Below, piece after piece: positions 7,424-20,879 of a DNA stretch of 64,000 nucleotides. The position numbers were made by a program, and so were the translations under genes. Origin of the DNA: Myxococcus hansupus (GTDB taxonomy: Bacteria > Myxococcota > Myxococcia > Myxococcales > Myxococcaceae). Below the pieces are notes generated by a model, which was given only the letters and a program-made list of their open reading frames with translations, made no database searches and was not told the DNA's origin. The first letter of the stretch is position 1; each line of letters begins with the position of its first letter. The stretch covers positions 5,972,501 through 6,036,500 of the forward strand of contig NZ_CP012109.1 in assembly GCF_000280925.3 (NCBI RefSeq), read 5' to 3'.

Positions 7424-9430
7424 TCAGTGCGCGGCCCCGGTGGCCTTGCCGTTGAGGTACGTCTGAAGCACCTGGATGCGGCTGATCTGCGTCGGGTCGC
7501 CGCCCTTCGCCGGGTCGTAGTCGAGCGGGTTGGCGCTCAGCACGACGAAGTCCGCCACCTTGCCCGGCTCGATGCTTCCGAGCAGTCCATCGAGCTCATG
7601 GTGCCGGGCGGGCACCGACGTCACCGCGCGCAGGGCCTCCTCCACCGTGGCCGCGTGCTCCTGGCCCAGCACGTAGCTCTTCTGGAAGTCAGGGTAGGCC
7701 CAGGTGCGGCGCGTGACAGCCTGCTCCACGAACCAGAGCGGGCGCGGCGGCGACACCATGGAGTCGCTGTGGAGCGAGAACGGGACGCCGTACTTCCTGT
7801 CGAACCCAATCGGGTCGATGTTCTTCGCGGCGTCCGCACCCAGCATGGACACGAAGGCATCACCCCAGTACGCGACATGGCCAATGAGGTGCGTCACCTC
7901 GATGTCCAGCGCCGGCACTGCCTTGCCCTGGTGGGTGCCCTTGCCCTGACGAAGGTCACCGATGCGCTGGGTGAGCGCTTCCTCGCCCACCGTGTTGTGG
8001 ATGAGCAGCACGCGGTGCGGCAGCACCTTCTCCTGCTGGAGTTGAGAGAACGCATCCAGCGCCCACTCATTCGCCTCGTTGCCGTTGGCATGCATCTGAA
8101 CCCGCCAGTCTCCCGTCGACCAGAGCGCGCGCAAATCCTCCTCGATGGCCGCCGCCCCGGAGAAGTCGGCACGCCCCTCACCCGCACCGTCACAGTGGCC
8201 GCCGGCGAGGTACTGATAAGGCGCACCGAGCTTCGCGGTGCAGCCCTGCGTCGAGCCATCGACCCAGATCTTGATGCCCCCCGCGCCCAGCCAGTTCGGC
8301 AGCCGGCAATCATTCTCCGCGCTCGGCACGCAGGCGGGACCGGTCGGACGAAGCGCCTTGTTGACGGCGACATCCCGGACGACGAGCCCCGTCACCCGCA
8401 GGGGAAAACCAGGGAGCGAGGCGAGCGTCTTCACGGCGTCAATCTGCGAGACGCTTTGAAGGCCGCCGTCCGCGACCGTCGTGATGCCCGCCTTCCGCAT
8501 CCCTTCAATGGCCTGCAGGATGTCCTTCTCATAGCCCTTGAGGAGCTGCGTCGGATTTGACTGCATCAACTCCATGGGCAGCCCCTTCCCGACCGCGGCC
8601 ATGAACGGCCCGTAGCCAGCCGCCTCCTGAAGCAACCCGGTGTACTTGCCCGTCTTCGGGTCCTTGACCCACGCGCCGCCGCCATCTCCGACCGAGGCCG
8701 GGGGCTGGCAGGAATCCATGGGGCCACCACAGACGGCCTGGAAGGCCTTCTCGTTCGCGTACGCCAGATGTCCGGACTGGTCCAGGATGAGGACCGGGCG
8801 GTCCTTGGTCACACAGGCATCCAGGTAGAACATCGGATTGTCCATGAAGCTGGCGGGCCCACCCTTGGCACAGGCCTCGGTGGTGATGAACGCCTGCCTC
8901 GACGGGTCCAGGTTCATGCCCAGGACGAACGCCTTGTCACTCGCCGCGAACTGAGGGGACAGCTTCATCCCGCCGAGCGCGCTCAGCACGTCCGCGCGGG
9001 ATGAGCAGTCCACGTTCGGATCCACCCGGTAGGGCGGAGGCAGGCACGGCGCCAGGTCGTGCGTGCCCATGATGCTCTGAATCAGCGTTGGCAGCACATG
9101 CAGGTGGGGGTCGATGAACCCCGGCATCAACACCTGCCCAGGGCTCAACTGGACGACCTCCACGGCGGAGCTGAGCCCCTGCCGCACCTGGTCCTCGGTG
9201 CCCACCTTCAAGATCCGACCCAGGGGGTCCACCAGGACGGCATCGGCGATGGTGCCCTGGTCATCCAGGGTGAGGACCTTTCCGAGGAAGAGGGTCGTGC
9301 CCGGCTCGACAGGGCCAACGCCTCCCGTCGTGGCACACGAAGTCGAGAGGGCCAGCGCGGCGCCGAACGTCAAACAGCGAGAAAGCACGTGCAGGCCGCG
9401 CGGCGAACAGCGACGCAGAAGTCGGTTCAT
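7424..9430 (-). CDS. Amidohydrolase family protein (YtcJ-like metal-dependent hydrolase), putative lipoprotein
   Basis: About 668 residues. The N-terminus (MNRLLRRCSPRGL...LALSTSCATT) looks like a signal peptide with a weak lipobox at the Cys, so an exported, possibly lipid-anchored enzyme. The core is an amidohydrolase_3 barrel: GQVLMPGFIDPHLH carries the metal-binding HxH, KIWVDGSTQG and QMHANGNEANEWALDAF follow, then GSIEPGKVADFVVLSANP at the end. Family members hydrolyse amides or related C-N bonds; the substrate cannot be read. Start at 9430 has AGGAAA just upstream; longer frames to 9511 are not supported. The nearest palindrome of the upstream array is 76 bases before the start codon, so this gene is the likely target of that regulator. 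Confidence 0.9.
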   Translation of the reverse strand: MNRLLRRCSPRGLHVLSRCLTFGAALALSTSCATTGGVGPVEPGTTLFLGKVLTLDDQGTIADAVLVDPLGRILKVGTEDQVRQGLSSAVEVVQLSPGQVLMPGFIDPHLHVLPTLIQSIMGTHDLAPCLPPPYRVDPNVDCSSRADVLSALGGMKLSPQFAASDKAFVLGMNLDPSRQAFITTEACAKGGPASFMDNPMFYLDACVTKDRPVLILDQSGHLAYANEKAFQAVCGGPMDSCQPPASVGDGGGAWVKDPKTGKYTGLLQEAAGYGPFMAAVGKGLPMELMQSNPTQLLKGYEKDILQAIEGMRKAGITTVADGGLQSVSQIDAVKTLASLPGFPLRVTGLVVRDVAVNKALRPTGPACVPSAENDCRLPNWLGAGGIKIWVDGSTQGCTAKLGAPYQYLAGGHCDGAGEGRADFSGAAAIEEDLRALWSTGDWRVQMHANGNEANEWALDAFSQLQQEKVLPHRVLLIHNTVGEEALTQRIGDLRQGKGTHQGKAVPALDIEVTHLIGHVAYWGDAFVSMLGADAAKNIDPIGFDRKYGVPFSLHSDSMVSPPRPLWFVEQAVTRRTWAYPDFQKSYVLGQEHAATVEEALRAVTSVPARHHELDGLLGSIEPGKVADFVVLSANPLDYDPAKGGDPTQISRIQVLQTYLNGKATGAAH

Positions 9431-9455
9431 GGGTTTCCTTTCAGGGGGGCGGCGC

Positions 9456-9461
9456 AGCATA
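9456..9461 (-). promoter_or_regulatory. Possible -10 element of the amidohydrolase gene
   Basis: On the minus strand TATGCT occurs 26 bases before the ATG, in a locally T-rich stretch. There is no good -35 hexamer at 17 bases, which would fit an activator-dependent promoter driven from the upstream palindromes. Weak, read by eye. Confidence 0.3.
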
Positions 9462-9505
9462 CACAAACGCCCCTCAAAAGCCACACAAACCAAGACACGC
9501 CAAAC

Positions 9506-9661
9506 AGACACGTCAGCCGAACACTGACACGTCAGCAGTCACGAATGACACGTCAACGAACAGCAGCCCCAGGGTAAAGCCCGGCACGGACGGAGCCCTC
9601 GCGGGGCGACTGACACGACCGTCATGCGAACTGACGCGTCAGCACCCCGCCTGACGCGTCC
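9506..9661. promoter_or_regulatory. Array of phased TGACRCGTCA palindromes (operator array)
   Basis: Six related 10-mers: AGACACGTCA (9506), TGACACGTCA (9525), TGACACGTCA (9546), a degenerate TGACACGACC (9611), TGACGCGTCA (9632) and TGACGCGTCC (9652). Start-to-start distances are 19, 21, 65, 21 and 20 bases, that is close to two helical turns each, with the 65-base gap near three units. The consensus TGAC-RY-GTCA is self-complementary, as expected for a dimeric DNA-binding protein. The same motif, again at a 20-base spacing, precedes the arginine kinase gene. I do not recognise the regulator. Confidence 0.75.
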
Positions 9662-10059
9662 GCGCCGAGGCGTTGGCCCTGGATGGCCGCGCTCCGGCGG
9701 TCGCGTTCAGTGCCGGCCGCTCCGGGGTCCAGCCCCAGGCCCCGCGCCGCGTCCGCGGATGGAGGTGCGCTCAATGGACGACGCAGCGCCTCCGCATCTC
9801 GGAGGACATTCGTGCTCAAACGCGCCCAGAAAAAGAGGCACACGACCAATGGCATCGGAAAAAACAGGCTGGCGCGCGGTCCCATTCGAGCCAAGCCGAA
9901 AACGAAAACACCGAGGACTCCTCAGCCACCCAGCACGGCCTGAATCCCAGTGAGCATCCTGACGCGGGTAATGCCCCGGAGCTGTCTCGGTCCTGCGTAT
10001 TGAATGACAGACTCCACGTCCCGCCAACCCGTCGCCAGCCACTGCCAGAAACCGAGCTT
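9662..10059. other. Region without a supported gene
   Basis: About 400 bases. On the minus strand the frame of the small ORF at 10060-10233 continues after its TGA through 45 codons to a second in-frame TGA (9922-9924), and then stays open to 9622. Codons here are less GC-biased at the third position than in real genes nearby (about 73% against 84%), and the last part runs through the operator array. I see no domain and treat it as non-coding or decayed. Confidence 0.5.
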
Positions 10060-10288: not shown

Positions 10289-11815
10289 TCACTCATCCGC
10301 GGAACGCATCGTGAAGGACACAGCCTCCGTGCCGAGCATGTACTCGTCACCGTCGGAGACCTGCTGCTTCGTGATGCGCTCGTTGTTGAACCAGGTTCCG
10401 TTCGAGGAGTTGAGGTCTTCGATGAAGACCTCGTCCCCCACGCGGGTGACGACGGCGTGCTCCCGGGAGACCCGCTCCGAGCGCACGACGAGGCTGCAAC
10501 GAGGCCCTCGGCCAATCGTGAAGCGCTCGGAGGAGATGGCCACCGGCGTGCCTTGCGCCCAGCGGATGAAGACTTCCAGCGGCGCCGGGGCTCGCACGAC
10601 GTTGGTGGTCTCCGCCGCGTGGTCCGCGGAGATGGTCACGGCCTCGTCGGCGGGCCGAACCTTCTGCACAGGACGGGGAACGAGCGGACGCGCGGCGACG
10701 GGAGTCGCGGCTGGAGCCTCGGCCTGGGCCTGCGCCTGAGCTGCGTCCGTGGGTGGGTCCACGACGCCCAGTGCGGCAAGCTCCGCCTCCAGGTCGACAT
10801 CGGACACATCCTGCTTCGCGGCGGGTTCATCCGCGTCCGAGTCCTCGTCGTCCGAGTCCTCGCCATCCGAGTCCTCATCGGCGTCCGAGTCCTCGTCGTC
10901 GGAGTCCTCATCGGCGTCCGAGTCCTCGTCATCCGAGTCCTCGTCGTCATCCGAGTCCTCGTCGTCATCCGAGTCGTCGTCTGAGTCCTCGTCGTCCGAG
11001 TCCTCATCGGCGTCCGAGTCCTCGTCATCCGAGTCCTCGTCATCCGAGTCCTCGTCGTCATCCGAGTCGTCATCCGAGTCGTCGTCCGAGTCCTCGTCGT
11101 CCGAGTCATCGTCATCCGAGTCCTCATCGTCGTCCGAGTCCTCCGACGAATCCGCGCCGAGCCCCTCCGAAGGCTCCACGGAGGCCTCGACCTCCGCCAG
11201 AATCTCCTGCATTCGGGCGCGCACCTGCTCGGGAGAGATCTCCGGCACCGCCGCGGGCGAAGCCGTGGCGCTCCCAGGGGGCTCCGTCACGGGCTCCTCG
11301 ACGGCGTCCTCGTCCAAAGCCGTGTCCGCCTCGGCAGCATCCGCCGACGAAGCCAGCGATGCGCCCTCCGCATCACTGTCATCAGCCCCCGACTCCGCCT
11401 CAGGCGAAGGCCGAGGAGCGACCTCCACGGGAACCACCTTCGACGCAGGGGCAACGGTCACTGGAGCCGCAACGGGCGCGGGAGCAACGGCCACCGCGGC
11501 AGCGACAGGCACGGAAGCAACGGCCGCCGGAGGCGCCGCGGGTTCCGAGCGCTCCACCACGCGCGTGGCCGCGACCTGGAGACTCGCGGCCACGGTGGCC
11601 ACGGGTGCGCCAGTACCACTGACGGCGCCCGCTTCGGGAAGCGCATCCCCGTGCAACGGAACCACCGTGGGGGCCACATAGCCATTCTGACGCGCGAGCT
11701 GGAACAGGGCCTGCGCCACCAGCGCATCCCGGTCCACGCCCATGTCGCGGCTCATCAACTCCAGCGCCCGCCACAGGGGCTCGGAGACCTCGATTGTCTG
11801 ACGAATCCGCTTCAT
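10289..11815 (-). CDS. FHA-domain protein with ribbon-helix-helix-like N-terminus and Asp/Ser-rich linker
   Basis: About 508 residues in three parts. Residues 1-47 (starting MKRIRQTIEVSEPLWRALEL) resemble a ribbon-helix-helix fold; this is inferred from pattern only. The middle is Pro/Ala/Val-rich, then a long Asp/Ser/Glu tract (see repeat). The last ~95 residues are an FHA domain: FTIGRGPRCSLVVRSERVSREHA followed by DLNSSNGTWFNNERI, containing the conserved GR, S-x-x-H and N-G residues that bind phosphothreonine. The start at 11815 lies two bases after the TAG of the upstream thioredoxin-fusion gene, with GAGGGGG as ribosome site, so the two are almost certainly co-translated. A Ser/Thr kinase gene lies 2.7 kb away. 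Likely cytoplasmic phospho-peptide adaptor. Confidence 0.88.
   Translation of the reverse strand: MKRIRQTIEVSEPLWRALELMSRDMGVDRDALVAQALFQLARQNGYVAPTVVPLHGDALPEAGAVSGTGAPVATVAASLQVAATRVVERSEPAAPPAAVASVPVAAAVAVAPAPVAAPVTVAPASKVVPVEVAPRPSPEAESGADDSDAEGASLASSADAAEADTALDEDAVEEPVTEPPGSATASPAAVPEISPEQVRARMQEILAEVEASVEPSEGLGADSSEDSDDDEDSDDDDSDDEDSDDDSDDDSDDDEDSDDEDSDDEDSDADEDSDDEDSDDDSDDDEDSDDDEDSDDEDSDADEDSDDEDSDADEDSDGEDSDDEDSDADEPAAKQDVSDVDLEAELAALGVVDPPTDAAQAQAQAEAPAATPVAARPLVPRPVQKVRPADEAVTISADHAAETTNVVRAPAPLEVFIRWAQGTPVAISSERFTIGRGPRCSLVVRSERVSREHAVVTRVGDEVFIEDLNSSNGTWFNNERITKQQVSDGDEYMLGTEAVSFTMRSADE
10829..11150 (-). repeat. Low-complexity Asp/Ser/Glu-encoding repeat
   Basis: Irregular repeats of GTCCTCGTC(A/G)TCCGA-type units coding for DSDDEDSDDD and DSDADEDSDDE over about 107 residues in the FHA protein. 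The tract is extremely acidic, would be disordered, and stays in frame throughout. The plus strand of the same stretch is an open Ser-rich frame, which is a by-product of the repeat. Confidence 0.9.
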
Positions 11816-11817
11816 GA

Positions 11818-14145
11818 CTACCCCCTCAGATTGGCCTGCCACGGCGACACGTGGTCCGCTTCGGTCAGCCAGAAGAACATCGCCTGCATCTCCGCGTACT
11901 GCTCCTCGGCGATCCCTGCCAGGTTGGGATGCAACTCCTGGAGGGCGACCCCTTCGAAATCGAACGTTGGCAGATCCGGGTCGAGCCGACCACGGGTCCG
12001 CCGGTTGCGGCACTGCCACAGCCGCTGGGTCGCCTGGCCCGCCGCCTGGCCGAAGTCCGCCGGAGGCGACACCGCGTCCGGCATCCGCACCGCCTGCTCC
12101 CCGCACGCCCACAGCAGCCAGACCAGCGCGCTCCACTCGCCACGGACCGCGCGGGACAGGGCCGGCAGCCCCATTCCCTTCGTGGACAGCGTCTCGTCGA
12201 TGGGCACCGCGTCACCATCCGAGTCCTCGGTCTCCGTTTCCTCCAACTCGACGGGCCCGTCGGGCAGCAGGGACGACACGTCGGGCGGCAGCCAGGGCAC
12301 GTCCGCGCCGGGCTTGAAGCGGGAGAGAATCTCCGCGCGCAGCAACTGGAGCCGCGTGGCGTACTTGCGGACCACGACCTGCACCGCGTCGAGCTCCTTC
12401 GAGGGTGCGTCGGGGACCTCGGTGAACGTGCAGCTCGCGGGCTCGCGCCCCGCCCAGAAGTCGAACCGAGGGAACAGCACCCGCGCGTAGGCGGAGAGGA
12501 ACTTCTCCGAATCCGGCTCGTAAGGCGCGATCGCCTCCGCGTCCTTCCGCATCTGCTCGCCCAGCCCCAGGTTCGCCAGGATGAGGCTCCGGGTGAACAG
12601 ATACGCGGGCCGCTCCGGCGCCAGCAGCATCGCGGCCAGGATGAAATCCAGACCCGCCCGGGGCCAGTCCGCCTGGTCGTGAAGCACCGCCAGCCCGCGA
12701 AGCAGCGTCGCGGGCTCCGCGCCTCGCACCAGCGCGTCCGCCAATGCCGCGCGCTCATCGCTCGCGCCGTTCATCACGCCATCGGCGTGCTCCCGCGCGC
12801 TCGACTCCGAACGCGGCAAGGTGAGCGCCTCCAGCCACGCCTTCAACGGCGCCACGTCCAGGGACACCGCGCTGGCGCGTGCCATGGCCAGCAGCGCCTC
12901 CCGATAGCGGCGGTCGGCCCGCGCCTGCTCGGCGAACTCGCGCCAGGCCTCCGCGCTCCGCGGCAGGTTGGAGAACACCTCGGAGGCATCGAGCGTCTCG
13001 TGGTCCTGGGCCACGCCCAGGTCCCTCGTGGCCACGACCTTCCGGTCCGCATCCAGCAGCTTCCACGTGCCACAGGCGAAGCCATCCGCCATCTCCCCCT
13101 CGTCGAACTCCACGCGAGGGTCGGCGTACTCCCCTTCCGCGGACGAGTGATAGCGCCCGTGGCGGCTGCCCTCCTGGAACTCCCCCTCCCAGACGAGGTC
13201 CCCATCCCGGTCCCAGAACTGGGCCAGCCCGTGGCGCTCCCCCGCCGCGTTGAGCGACACCAGGGACCACTGGTCCAGGTCCTCGCGGTACTCCGCCTTC
13301 TCCGGGAGGCTCGCGGGCCGCGACGGGTACGGCACGCCCGTGGAGGGCACCACGCGCTCGCCTTCGCCGTTGTAGTGCAGCACCTGCGTCACGCGGCCGT
13401 GCGAGTAGACCATCACCGTGCGGCGGACCTTCTCGCAGACGCCGTTCTCATGCATCCGCTCGGTGGTGAACTGGTCGGACGCGTACCAGGTGCGAGGGCC
13501 GTGCAGGTTGCCCTTCTCGAACGCGCCGTCCTGGGACACCTCGCCGCTCTCATGGAAGCGCTTGAAGGGACCCTGCGGCTTGCCGTGGACGAAGATGCAC
13601 TCGTTGCAGAGCGTTCCGTCGGCGCGCCAGTACTTCCAGGGGCCGTGCTTCTCGCCGTCCTCGTCCTTGTCGCCGAAGCACCACTCCTGGTCCCCCTCAT
13701 CCCACTCCGCGTGGGGTGAGACGCCCAACGGCGGCGTCCCCTCCTCCGTCAGCTTGCGGTTCTTCGCCCGCTGCGCCTCGACGGCCAGGTCCACCGTGCC
13801 CAGCTTGCTCACCCAGGTCGTGAACGCCGAGGCCGACATCGCGCCCGAGGCACGCCGAACCTCGACGCCGTCCTTGAAGGCCACCAGCGTGGGGATGGAG
13901 CGAATCTCCATGCGGCCGGAAATCGCCTCCTGCGCCTCCGTGTCGAGCTTCCCGAAGGTGATGGCCGGGAACTCCTTCGCGGTCGCCTCGAAGGTCGGCG
14001 CGAAGTTGCGACAGGGGCCACACCATTCCGCCCAGAAGTCCACCACGCACACCCCAGCCCCCTGGGTGATGCGGTCAAAGTTCTCCTGGGTCAATTCCAC
14101 CGTCTGGCCAGCCACGACGACTCCCTTGCGAGATGAGGAGGCCAT
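11818..14145 (-). CDS. Thioredoxin-domain protein fused to MORN-type (YwqK-like) repeats
   Basis: About 775 residues. Residues ~12-115 are a thioredoxin domain with an intact W41-C-G-P-C45 redox centre and the cis-Pro loop IRSIPTLVAFKDG. Residues ~160-380 hold repeats such as GEKHGPWKYWRADGTL, GKPQGPFKRFHESGEV, GNLHGPRTWY and GERHGLAQFWDRDGDLVWEGEF, which match the MORN-variant repeats of YwqK-like antitoxin proteins. The remaining ~390 residues are helical and unrecognised. No signal peptide, so cytoplasmic. I kept ATG 14145; a GTG at 14115 has a better ribosome site (GGGAG) and would start VAGQTVELTQ. A 16-base palindrome lies directly upstream. First gene of an operon with the FHA gene. 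Confidence 0.88.
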   Translation of the reverse strand: MASSSRKGVVVAGQTVELTQENFDRITQGAGVCVVDFWAEWCGPCRNFAPTFEATAKEFPAITFGKLDTEAQEAISGRMEIRSIPTLVAFKDGVEVRRASGAMSASAFTTWVSKLGTVDLAVEAQRAKNRKLTEEGTPPLGVSPHAEWDEGDQEWCFGDKDEDGEKHGPWKYWRADGTLCNECIFVHGKPQGPFKRFHESGEVSQDGAFEKGNLHGPRTWYASDQFTTERMHENGVCEKVRRTVMVYSHGRVTQVLHYNGEGERVVPSTGVPYPSRPASLPEKAEYREDLDQWSLVSLNAAGERHGLAQFWDRDGDLVWEGEFQEGSRHGRYHSSAEGEYADPRVEFDEGEMADGFACGTWKLLDADRKVVATRDLGVAQDHETLDASEVFSNLPRSAEAWREFAEQARADRRYREALLAMARASAVSLDVAPLKAWLEALTLPRSESSAREHADGVMNGASDERAALADALVRGAEPATLLRGLAVLHDQADWPRAGLDFILAAMLLAPERPAYLFTRSLILANLGLGEQMRKDAEAIAPYEPDSEKFLSAYARVLFPRFDFWAGREPASCTFTEVPDAPSKELDAVQVVVRKYATRLQLLRAEILSRFKPGADVPWLPPDVSSLLPDGPVELEETETEDSDGDAVPIDETLSTKGMGLPALSRAVRGEWSALVWLLWACGEQAVRMPDAVSPPADFGQAAGQATQRLWQCRNRRTRGRLDPDLPTFDFEGVALQELHPNLAGIAEEQYAEMQAMFFWLTEADHVSPWQANLRG

Positions 14146-19728: not shown

Positions 19729-19771
19729 TGACGTGTCACCCCTGGGGCTGACACGTCAGCAACACGTGTCA
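19729..19771. promoter_or_regulatory. TGACRYGTCA operator pair upstream of arginine kinase
   Basis: TGACGTGTCA at 19729-19738 and TGACACGTCA at 19749-19758, 20 bases apart, plus a partial ACACGTGTCA at 19762-19771. The site at 19749-19758 ends 78 bases before the start codon, almost the same distance (76) as in the amidohydrolase array. Same motif, same phasing, so probably the same regulator. Confidence 0.7.
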
Positions 19772-19835
19772 TGGACGCGGACGCCACGCCAAGTCTGGAG
19801 AATCACTCACATTAAAACATCCGGCCCGGTGGCAC

Positions 19836-20879
19836 ATGTCCTGCTCAACCGGCGCCGCGATGTTGCTCCACAAGCACCTGACACCCGAGCTGAAATCCCG
19901 GCTCGAAAGACTCACGACGCGCAACGGCTGGACACTGCGGCGGGCCATTCAAAGCGGCCTCGACCACGAGGACTCCCAGATGGGCGTCTACGCGGGAGAC
20001 AGTGAGACCTATGCCCTGTTCTCACCGCTGCTCCACCCCATCATCCGGGACCACTCTGGCTACGACCTGGATGGACATCCGAGTGACTTCTCGCTCGAAG
20101 GGCTCCCCCAGGAGGCGTTGGACCCGTCGGGCGAGTTCATCCTCTCCACGCGGATTCGGGTCGGCCGGAACCTCGCCCGGTATGCGTTTCCTCCCGCCAT
20201 TGGTGCCCGCGCCCGCGCCGAGCTGGAGGCCGAGGTCGTCCAGGTCCTCTCGGGCCTGAAGGGAGAACTCGCGGGCGAGTACCACCCCCTGGCCAGCCTC
20301 TCTGAAGTCCAGCGACGGGCCTGGGTGGAGCAGCACTTCCTGTTCAAGCCCGGGGACCGCTTCCTGGACAGCGCGGGCGTCAACCGGGACTGGCCCCGGA
20401 ACCGTGGCATCTTCCACAGCACCGACATGCGGTTCATCGTCTGGGTGGGCGAGGAAGACGCCCTGCGCATCATCAGCATGCAGTCGGGCTCCGGGCTCGC
20501 GGAGGCATTCCACCGCCTCAAGTCGGCGCTGGACGTCCTCGGCGAGCAGCTCGACTTCGCGCGGGATTCACGGCTCGGCTACCACACGGCGTGCCCCACG
20601 AACCTGGGCACCGCCATGCGCGCCTCGGTGCTCATCCGGCTGCCGCGACTGTCGCGCCGCCCGGACTTCCACGCCCGCTGCGCCCGCCTGGGGCTCGCCG
20701 TGCGCGGCCTGCACGGAGAACACTCCGACGCCGAGGATGGAATCCATGACATCTCCAACGCCACCCGGCTCGGCGTGACGGAGCGAGACATCTACCGGCA
20801 ACTGTGGACAGGGATTCGACAGCTCATTTCGCTGGAGACTCGCAGCGGAATCTTGAACGACACCCGACGCGGCAACTGA
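19836..20879 (+). CDS. Arginine kinase (ATP:guanido phosphotransferase)
   Basis: About 347 residues, the full length of a phosphagen kinase and longer than McsB-type relatives without the N-domain. Diagnostic blocks are STRIRVGRNL, RGIFHSTDMRFIVWVGEEDALRIISMQ, CPTNLGTAMRASV with Cys253, and RGLHGEHSDAEDG. It should phosphorylate L-arginine with ATP as an energy buffer in the cytoplasm; a homologue in Myxococcus xanthus is linked to stress tolerance and development. Oddities: the usual NEED motif reads GEED, and where I remember the catalytic loop Glu (HTE) this protein has Asp298 (HSD). Start at 19836 has GGTGG four bases before; ATG 19860 is possible. Preceded by the operator pair; ends in a strong terminator. 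Confidence 0.92.
   Translation: MSCSTGAAMLLHKHLTPELKSRLERLTTRNGWTLRRAIQSGLDHEDSQMGVYAGDSETYALFSPLLHPIIRDHSGYDLDGHPSDFSLEGLPQEALDPSGEFILSTRIRVGRNLARYAFPPAIGARARAELEAEVVQVLSGLKGELAGEYHPLASLSEVQRRAWVEQHFLFKPGDRFLDSAGVNRDWPRNRGIFHSTDMRFIVWVGEEDALRIISMQSGSGLAEAFHRLKSALDVLGEQLDFARDSRLGYHTACPTNLGTAMRASVLIRLPRLSRRPDFHARCARLGLAVRGLHGEHSDAEDGIHDISNATRLGVTERDIYRQLWTGIRQLISLETRSGILNDTRRGN

Follow-up and report, generated by a model that had tools for sequence, protein, structure and literature searches.

Promoters of the sigma-54 class require an enhancer-binding protein, and myxobacteria encode dozens of these activators, few of which, to our knowledge, have a known binding box. FHA-domain enhancer-binding proteins of M. 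xanthus were reportedly described by Jelsbak et al. 2005. The DNA-binding domains of Fis, NtrC1, NtrC4 and TyrR have, as far as we know, one helix-turn-helix per subunit. NmpR of M. xanthus is a response regulator with target promoters near its own gene, including that of the operon holding nmpR, and its box is GCGCA-N5-TGCGC, mostly with 14-15 bp between sites (PMC11841059). The half-site of Nla28, CT(C/G)CG(C/G)AG, occurs in tandem repeats with loose spacing (PMC9765219, PMC7910581). The box pairs considered here, and their candidate reader, protein B, share features with each of these systems. Like NtrC-type enhancers and the NmpR sites, they comprise a pair of in-register dyad sites ahead of a -24/-12 promoter, with an AAA+ activator as the putative reader, and B likewise has target promoters close to its own gene; unlike the NmpR system, the B boxes are 10 bp long with a step of 20-22 bp, and B carries an FHA-like domain and two helix-turn-helices (PMC11841059). 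As with Nla28 of M. xanthus, an enhancer-binding protein is paired with repeated sites before sigma-54 promoters and a large regulon, whereas the B boxes are palindromes and not loosely spaced CT(C/G)CG(C/G)AG tandem repeats (PMC9765219, PMC7910581).

The window, a stretch of 64,000 nucleotides from the genome of Myxococcus hansupus (G000), contains two promoters with such boxes, the first of which precedes an amidohydrolase gene. Its features are as follows.

7424..9430, minus strand: amidohydrolase gene (Amidohydro_3), lying behind the array; its N terminus looks lipoprotein-like by eye
9456..9461, minus strand: -10-like TATGCT with TGTG before it, a putative promoter element
9468..9483, minus strand: weak sigma-54-like TGGCTTTTGAGGGGCG, score 16, probably no sigma-54 promoter
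9506..9515, no strand assigned: box 1, AGACACGTCA, read directly, one mismatch to TGACNNGTCA, the box closest to the amidohydrolase gene
9525..9534, no strand assigned: box 2, TGACACGTCA, exact
9546..9555, no strand assigned: box 3, TGACACGTCA, exact
9611..9620, no strand assigned: box 4, TGACACGACC, two mismatches, the weakest of the six
9632..9641, no strand assigned: box 5, TGACGCGTCA, exact
9652..9661, no strand assigned: box 6, TGACGCGTCC, one mismatch

The first-pass annotation had placed six sites here, three in each of two groups, with 19-21 base steps and a gap near three steps, and direct reading bears this out: three sites match exactly, two differ at one position and the site at 9611 differs at two, and the steps from box to box are 19, 21, 65, 21 and 20 bp, the 65 bp gap being about three steps. 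The 730 bp from 9201 to 9930 contain five sites that depart from TGACNNGTCA at no more than one position, as compared to a mean of 0.29 and a maximum of 4 in 5000 random sequences matched in first-order (dinucleotide) statistics. Single sites of this quality are not enriched across the window as a whole (22 versus 24.8 expected), indicating that the signal resides in clustering and phasing and not in the single motif. The amidohydrolase has matches at E<=1e-60 in 11 of the 25 genomes searched. Boxes at 19-21 bp steps, marked with up to two mismatches, are found upstream of nine of ten orthologs examined (G042, G023, G056, G035, G049, G058, G038, G046 and G017), G053 being the exception; a lack of conservation before orthologous genes was what the annotation itself had said would speak against the array, which thus survives. 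The two-group layout is kept in G042 (with one member decayed), G056 and G035, and also in G023 and G017, which have five boxes each. The counterparts of box 4, read on the gene strand, are TGTCGTGTCA in G042, CGTCGTGTCA in G056 and TGACGTGTCA in G035. Phased palindromes of this kind had been taken to suit an oligomeric regulator, a notion supported by both the phasing and the conservation in orthologs, and binding by such oligomers would be cooperative. The annotation knew of no described myxobacterial regulator with this box, and no myxobacterial paper with it emerged from the literature searched: by title, none was found for the string TGACGCGTCA, and the sole match for any two of TGACACGTCA, TGACGTGTCA and Myxococcus was on muscle. 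The gene upstream of the array (10289-12136, minus strand) encodes a long Asp/Ser/Glu repeat (DSDDEDSDD...) and, by eye, an end that resembles an FHA domain.

The array had also been thought to be devoted to one gene, which does not hold in view of ten further array promoters in the genome and of boxes before many genes in relatives. A genome-wide search for pairs, as the annotation had proposed, found exact pairs of the form TGACNNGTCA-N8-12-TGACNNGTCA at six places in the 9.49-Mb genome, 20-21 bp apart and including the amidohydrolase array, and none for the reversed pattern. Allowing up to three mismatches added promoters at 513939 and 1954827, along with matches that look like chance (reversed control 1 and 0), and three more groups, with boxes 32 or 43 bp apart, are located at 2160992, 2161531 and 2171977, which brings the array promoters of this genome to 11, the amidohydrolase array included. 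Single matches to TGACNNGTCA number 57 genome-wide, and 34 of the 50 matches listed have, by eye, a purine-pyrimidine centre. Many of the solo boxes that were retrieved sit inside genes as called by a crude gene finder, and only pairs and tight groups were therefore counted as regulatory. The second promoter in the window, one of the six exact pairs and absent from the first-pass annotation, lies before an arginine-kinase-like gene.

19729..19738, no strand assigned: box TGACGTGTCA, before the arginine-kinase-like gene
19749..19758, no strand assigned: box TGACACGTCA, 20 bp from the box at 19729
19830..19845, plus strand: sigma-54 -24/-12 element TGGCACATGTCCTGCT, score 21.0
19860..20879, plus strand: ATP:guanido phosphotransferase (arginine-kinase-like) gene, the second target in the window

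By title, none of the literature matches listed concerns the control of an arginine-kinase gene in Myxococcus. Elsewhere in the genome, the phosphoesterase gene behind the boxes at 1752708 (L035:4096-5648, 1751-1753 kb, minus strand) is split over two reading frames and hence looks broken in G000. Behind the gene for protein B lie two tandem genes for small proteins (L037:4024-5058, 2161 kb; MAIVTVVI..., about 115 aa), each with boxes and a sigma-54 element; the one that was scanned has no Pfam or NCBIfam match.

The paired boxes are associated with sigma-54 elements, which were scored by our own weighting of the consensus as printed in PMC9765219. A score of at least 19.5 is found downstream of 8 of the 11 array promoters of G000, as at the arginine-kinase gene, and the three below this value precede the amidohydrolase gene, the phosphoesterase gene (1752708) and a LodB-like gene (7414592). 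Across 66 pair loci, representing 72 of 114 pairs from this genome and 18 relatives, 41 have an element scoring at least 20 within 30-330 bp, versus 2.7 expected when positions are drawn at random from these loci, and 48 have one scoring at least 19, versus 7.7; 18 of the 66 stay below 19. For 37 of the 41 strong elements, the distance to the start of the pair is 75-150 bp. As a class, box pairs thus mostly have a -24/-12 element downstream. The 72 pairs are spaced by 21 bp (45), 20 bp (15) or 22 bp (12) within a search window of 19-22 bp, and further boxes outside that window, tallied for each box and in either direction, occur at 40-43, 60-61 and 11 bp. Exact pairs are present in 26 of 59 genomes of the family and 56 of 145 of the class, with reversed controls at zero, and in none of the 50 class genomes outside the family. 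Given that sigma-54 promoters cannot work unaided by an enhancer-binding protein, the simplest explanation of the boxes is that this protein binds them, and the pairs look like an enhancer of sigma-54 promoters. Judged by sequence, the array is part of a set of putative enhancer boxes of a wide regulon for which there is a strong candidate activator. The first-pass annotation had proposed neither the connection to sigma-54 nor a likely reader.

This candidate, protein B (G000:C1:2159374-2160981, 536 aa), is encoded directly before the boxes at 2160992, and by its domains is a predicted sigma-54 enhancer-binding protein that would activate in an ATP-driven manner. Its N terminus has an FHA fold and is followed by an AAA+ domain for sigma-54 activation, which carries a GAYTGA loop, and by a tandem pair of Fis-like helix-turn-helices. 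The AAA+ sigma-54 interaction domain matches PF00158 (E 1.4e-57), and in most of 26 rows the loop is either GAYTGA or GAFTGA, with departures in L206 (GAYSGA), L209 (DAFTGA), L196 (GAYTGS) and L214 (GSYTGA). Against a cut-off of 22, HTH_8 scores 25.8 bits when the C-terminal piece is scanned and 21.0 bits, slightly too low, on the whole protein. A structural model of the M. xanthus ortholog (L186; mean pLDDT 63) is confident for residues 24-147 and poor, with low confidence, for the AAA+ part. Residues 24-147 form an FHA beta-sandwich that matches the FHA domains of ArnA (5a8i, Z 12.2, rmsd 3.7 over 110) and DgcB (6hc0, Z 11.8, rmsd 2.0 over 98). The N-terminal 162 residues of B match no Pfam family up to E 10, and the domain is for this reason called only FHA-like, a diverged fold. 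In combining FHA with an enhancer-binding protein, B resembles the FHA-domain enhancer-binding proteins of M. xanthus, which belong to the same organism group, and it may be one of those genes. The C terminus of the model contains two three-helix units (mean pLDDT 82.6 when modelled alone). Unit 2 matches Fis (6p0u, Z 6.3, rmsd 1.7 over 42 residues) and unit 1 matches NtrC1 (4l5e, Z 5.8, rmsd 2.3 over 42 residues); the comparison with the helix-turn-helix pair also returns unrelated folds, and Z values up to 6.3 indicate a fold class at best. Both units thus match the fold of the Fis, NtrC1, NtrC4 and TyrR domains at low Z, and B differs from these proteins in having two such motifs in a row. 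The phrase 'tandem helix-turn-helix' was not found among the literature matches listed.

The distribution of B parallels that of the boxes. Genes of the B family (E<=1e-70) occur in 32 of the 59 family genomes, including all 26 with pairs, and in 68 of the 145 class genomes, including all 56 with pairs, and none of the 77 class genomes devoid of B-family genes has a pair. Twelve class genomes have B-family genes and no exact pair, a count that mixes B and its paralogs; some of them have boxes behind B that do not form an exact pair (e.g., G028 and G031). As 67 of the 68 genomes belong to one family, to which the pairs are also confined, this co-occurrence is confounded with descent. The position of boxes behind the gene is more specific: a box with at most one mismatch is found within 150 bp behind the B stop codon at 18 of 31 loci (33 loci in named genomes minus two non-myxobacterial ones), versus 5 of 1068 control windows, and a box directly behind the gene is missing at 13 of the 31. 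One record, titled Comamonas sp. KCTC 72670 (L185, BNCN01000006.1), encodes a protein 97% identical to B; it is probably myxobacterial, and its name may be wrong. The short palindrome counts against B as the reader, because the half-sites of a 10-bp palindrome are just 6 bp apart, which is unusual for a Fis-like dimer. Nevertheless, the evidence argues with good confidence that the array is an upstream enhancer of a sigma-54-class activator, most likely protein B. Oligomers of B would bind cooperatively to palindromes that are separated by two helical turns and present the same face of the DNA. Looping would bring them to a promoter some 100 bp downstream, where they would spend ATP on opening the sigma-54 polymerase, with the FHA domain possibly taking the signal of a Ser/Thr kinase.

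The amidohydrolase promoter does belong with the other box promoters, and either form of polymerase may serve it. Its boxes may act with ordinary sigma-70-type polymerase, such that B or a relative, about 61 bp upstream, either contacts the polymerase in a class I-like manner or shuts the promoter off, an arrangement compatible with B as the box reader and to which we give a little less than an even chance. It draws on the -10-like motif, which is conserved in five of six sequences of the genus (G000, G042, G023, G056 and G035; G049 differs, with GTGTATAGG) and by hand count starts 44 bp past the last box in G000, G023, G056 and G035; a hand count also puts the centre of box 1 about 61 bp upstream of the transcription start predicted from this motif. 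Most amidohydrolase promoters, moreover, are devoid of a sigma-54 element: in G000, which has the conserved motif instead, the best score in the upstream stretch is 16.5, and in eight of the nine box-bearing orthologs no good element is present, with best scores of 16.5-18.5. On the other hand, no match to a -35 element was seen, the spacing from box to motif is lost outside of the genus (G058 and G038), and in G011 the boxes of a more distant amidohydrolase are accompanied by a top-scoring sigma-54 element (TGGCACCGTCATTGCT, 22.5). Among the box-bearing orthologs, G046 alone has a good element (TGGTGCGGCCCTTGCT, 19.5).

The paralogs of B suggest how its boxes may have diversified. Among 70 copies, 23 of the 33 whose second recognition helix carries Gln are followed by a TGACRYGTCA-type box, versus 2 of the 37 others, which include four copies with an unparsed second motif. 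On a tree of 75 of the 78 B copies (L222, L256 and L257 were left out as their second helix-turn-helix motif could not be parsed), Gln-type copies are followed by a TGACRYGTCA-type box in 25 cases, by CGACRYGTCG in none and by neither in 11, whereas the counts for non-Gln copies are 0, 13 and 26. The fragment L147 (G052) was left out of the box counts, and L222, outside of the tree, has the Gln and lacks a box. A sister clade of B often shows CGACRYGTCG in place of the TGAC-type box, with exact pairs behind L179, L181, L233, L241, L232, L234 and L254. The switch from T to C is one change on the B tree; the association of Gln and box is therefore a single event, and owing to this and to the relatedness of the genomes, Fisher tests on copies or genomes carry no evidence strength. 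Comparison loci totalling 863,001 bases contain only one CGACRYGTCG pair, which is a B copy's own. The 59 family genomes contain 19 such pairs, nine within 6 kb of a B-family gene and ten not; G005 and G050 have one each and no B. A third type of box, a pair of CCACGCGTGG 21 bp apart, is found 43 and 64 bp behind the stop codon of a B paralog in L248 (G029). The second B-family copy of G000 (G000:C1:4794852-4796423, L252) has an in-frame TAG stop and thus looks like a pseudogene; copies in G116 and G123 have a TAG as well.

Taken jointly, these features might mean that B founds a family whose subunits each recognize an entire 10-bp palindrome through two tandem Fis-like helix-turn-helices, a dimer thereby covering two palindromes at a distance of 21 bp; that paralogs have changed the palindrome, from TGAC to CGAC and once to CCAC, along with the second recognition helix, resulting in separate enhancer codes within one genome; and that the same activator serves a promoter of non-sigma-54 type at the amidohydrolase gene. 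As a whole we regard this combination as rather unlikely, and the reading of an entire palindrome by one B subunit is speculation. The occurrence of T-type and C-type boxes in sister clades does offer a direct route to how activators change their DNA targets.

That B reads the boxes can be set against other candidates. A regulator of a different family, TetR- or MarR-like for example, might bind the palindrome while the sigma-54 elements serve other activators, given that a 10-bp palindrome fits many helix-turn-helix families and that the string TGACGCGTCA occurs in a paper on BetI regulators, BetI being a member of the TetR family. Such a regulator would not account for the steady distance from pairs to strong sigma-54 elements, for the boxes behind the B gene or for a box variant that tracks the B clade, and we hold it to be improbable. 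AcoR-like GAF activators are encoded within 2 kb of boxes at two loci, one in G000 and one in G058, but matches to the G058 protein (E<=1e-100) are found in 7 of the 59 family genomes and in neither G000 nor the pair-rich G007, G044 and G051. Readers of this kind were set aside as too narrowly distributed, the G058 protein being the query, and have very little probability. That the array is chance or a repeat element devoid of a regulatory role, for which the unremarkable number of one-mismatch single sites in the window could be cited, is contradicted by the random-sequence control, the zero counts for reversed patterns and the conservation in orthologs, and is next to impossible.

With B as the likely reader, an unexplained array becomes a testable regulon for which box, class of promoter, candidate protein and targets can be named. 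The box targets share no evident pathway, and a role of the regulon in stress or secondary metabolism is a guess. A lipase stands beside the arginine kinase, phosphoesterase and amidohydrolase among them. In relatives, the boxes are followed by a terpene cyclase of the two-domain, encapsulin-cargo type that passes NF041168 (L083 was scanned; L088, L133 and L136 were grouped with it by similarity) and that presumably makes geosmin. MscS-like channels are likewise found downstream of boxes (L108 was scanned; L117, L132 and L134 were grouped by similarity), and other downstream genes in relatives encode FAD-linked oxidases, ferritin-like and AurF-like proteins, phosphoesterases and proteins with signal-like starts.
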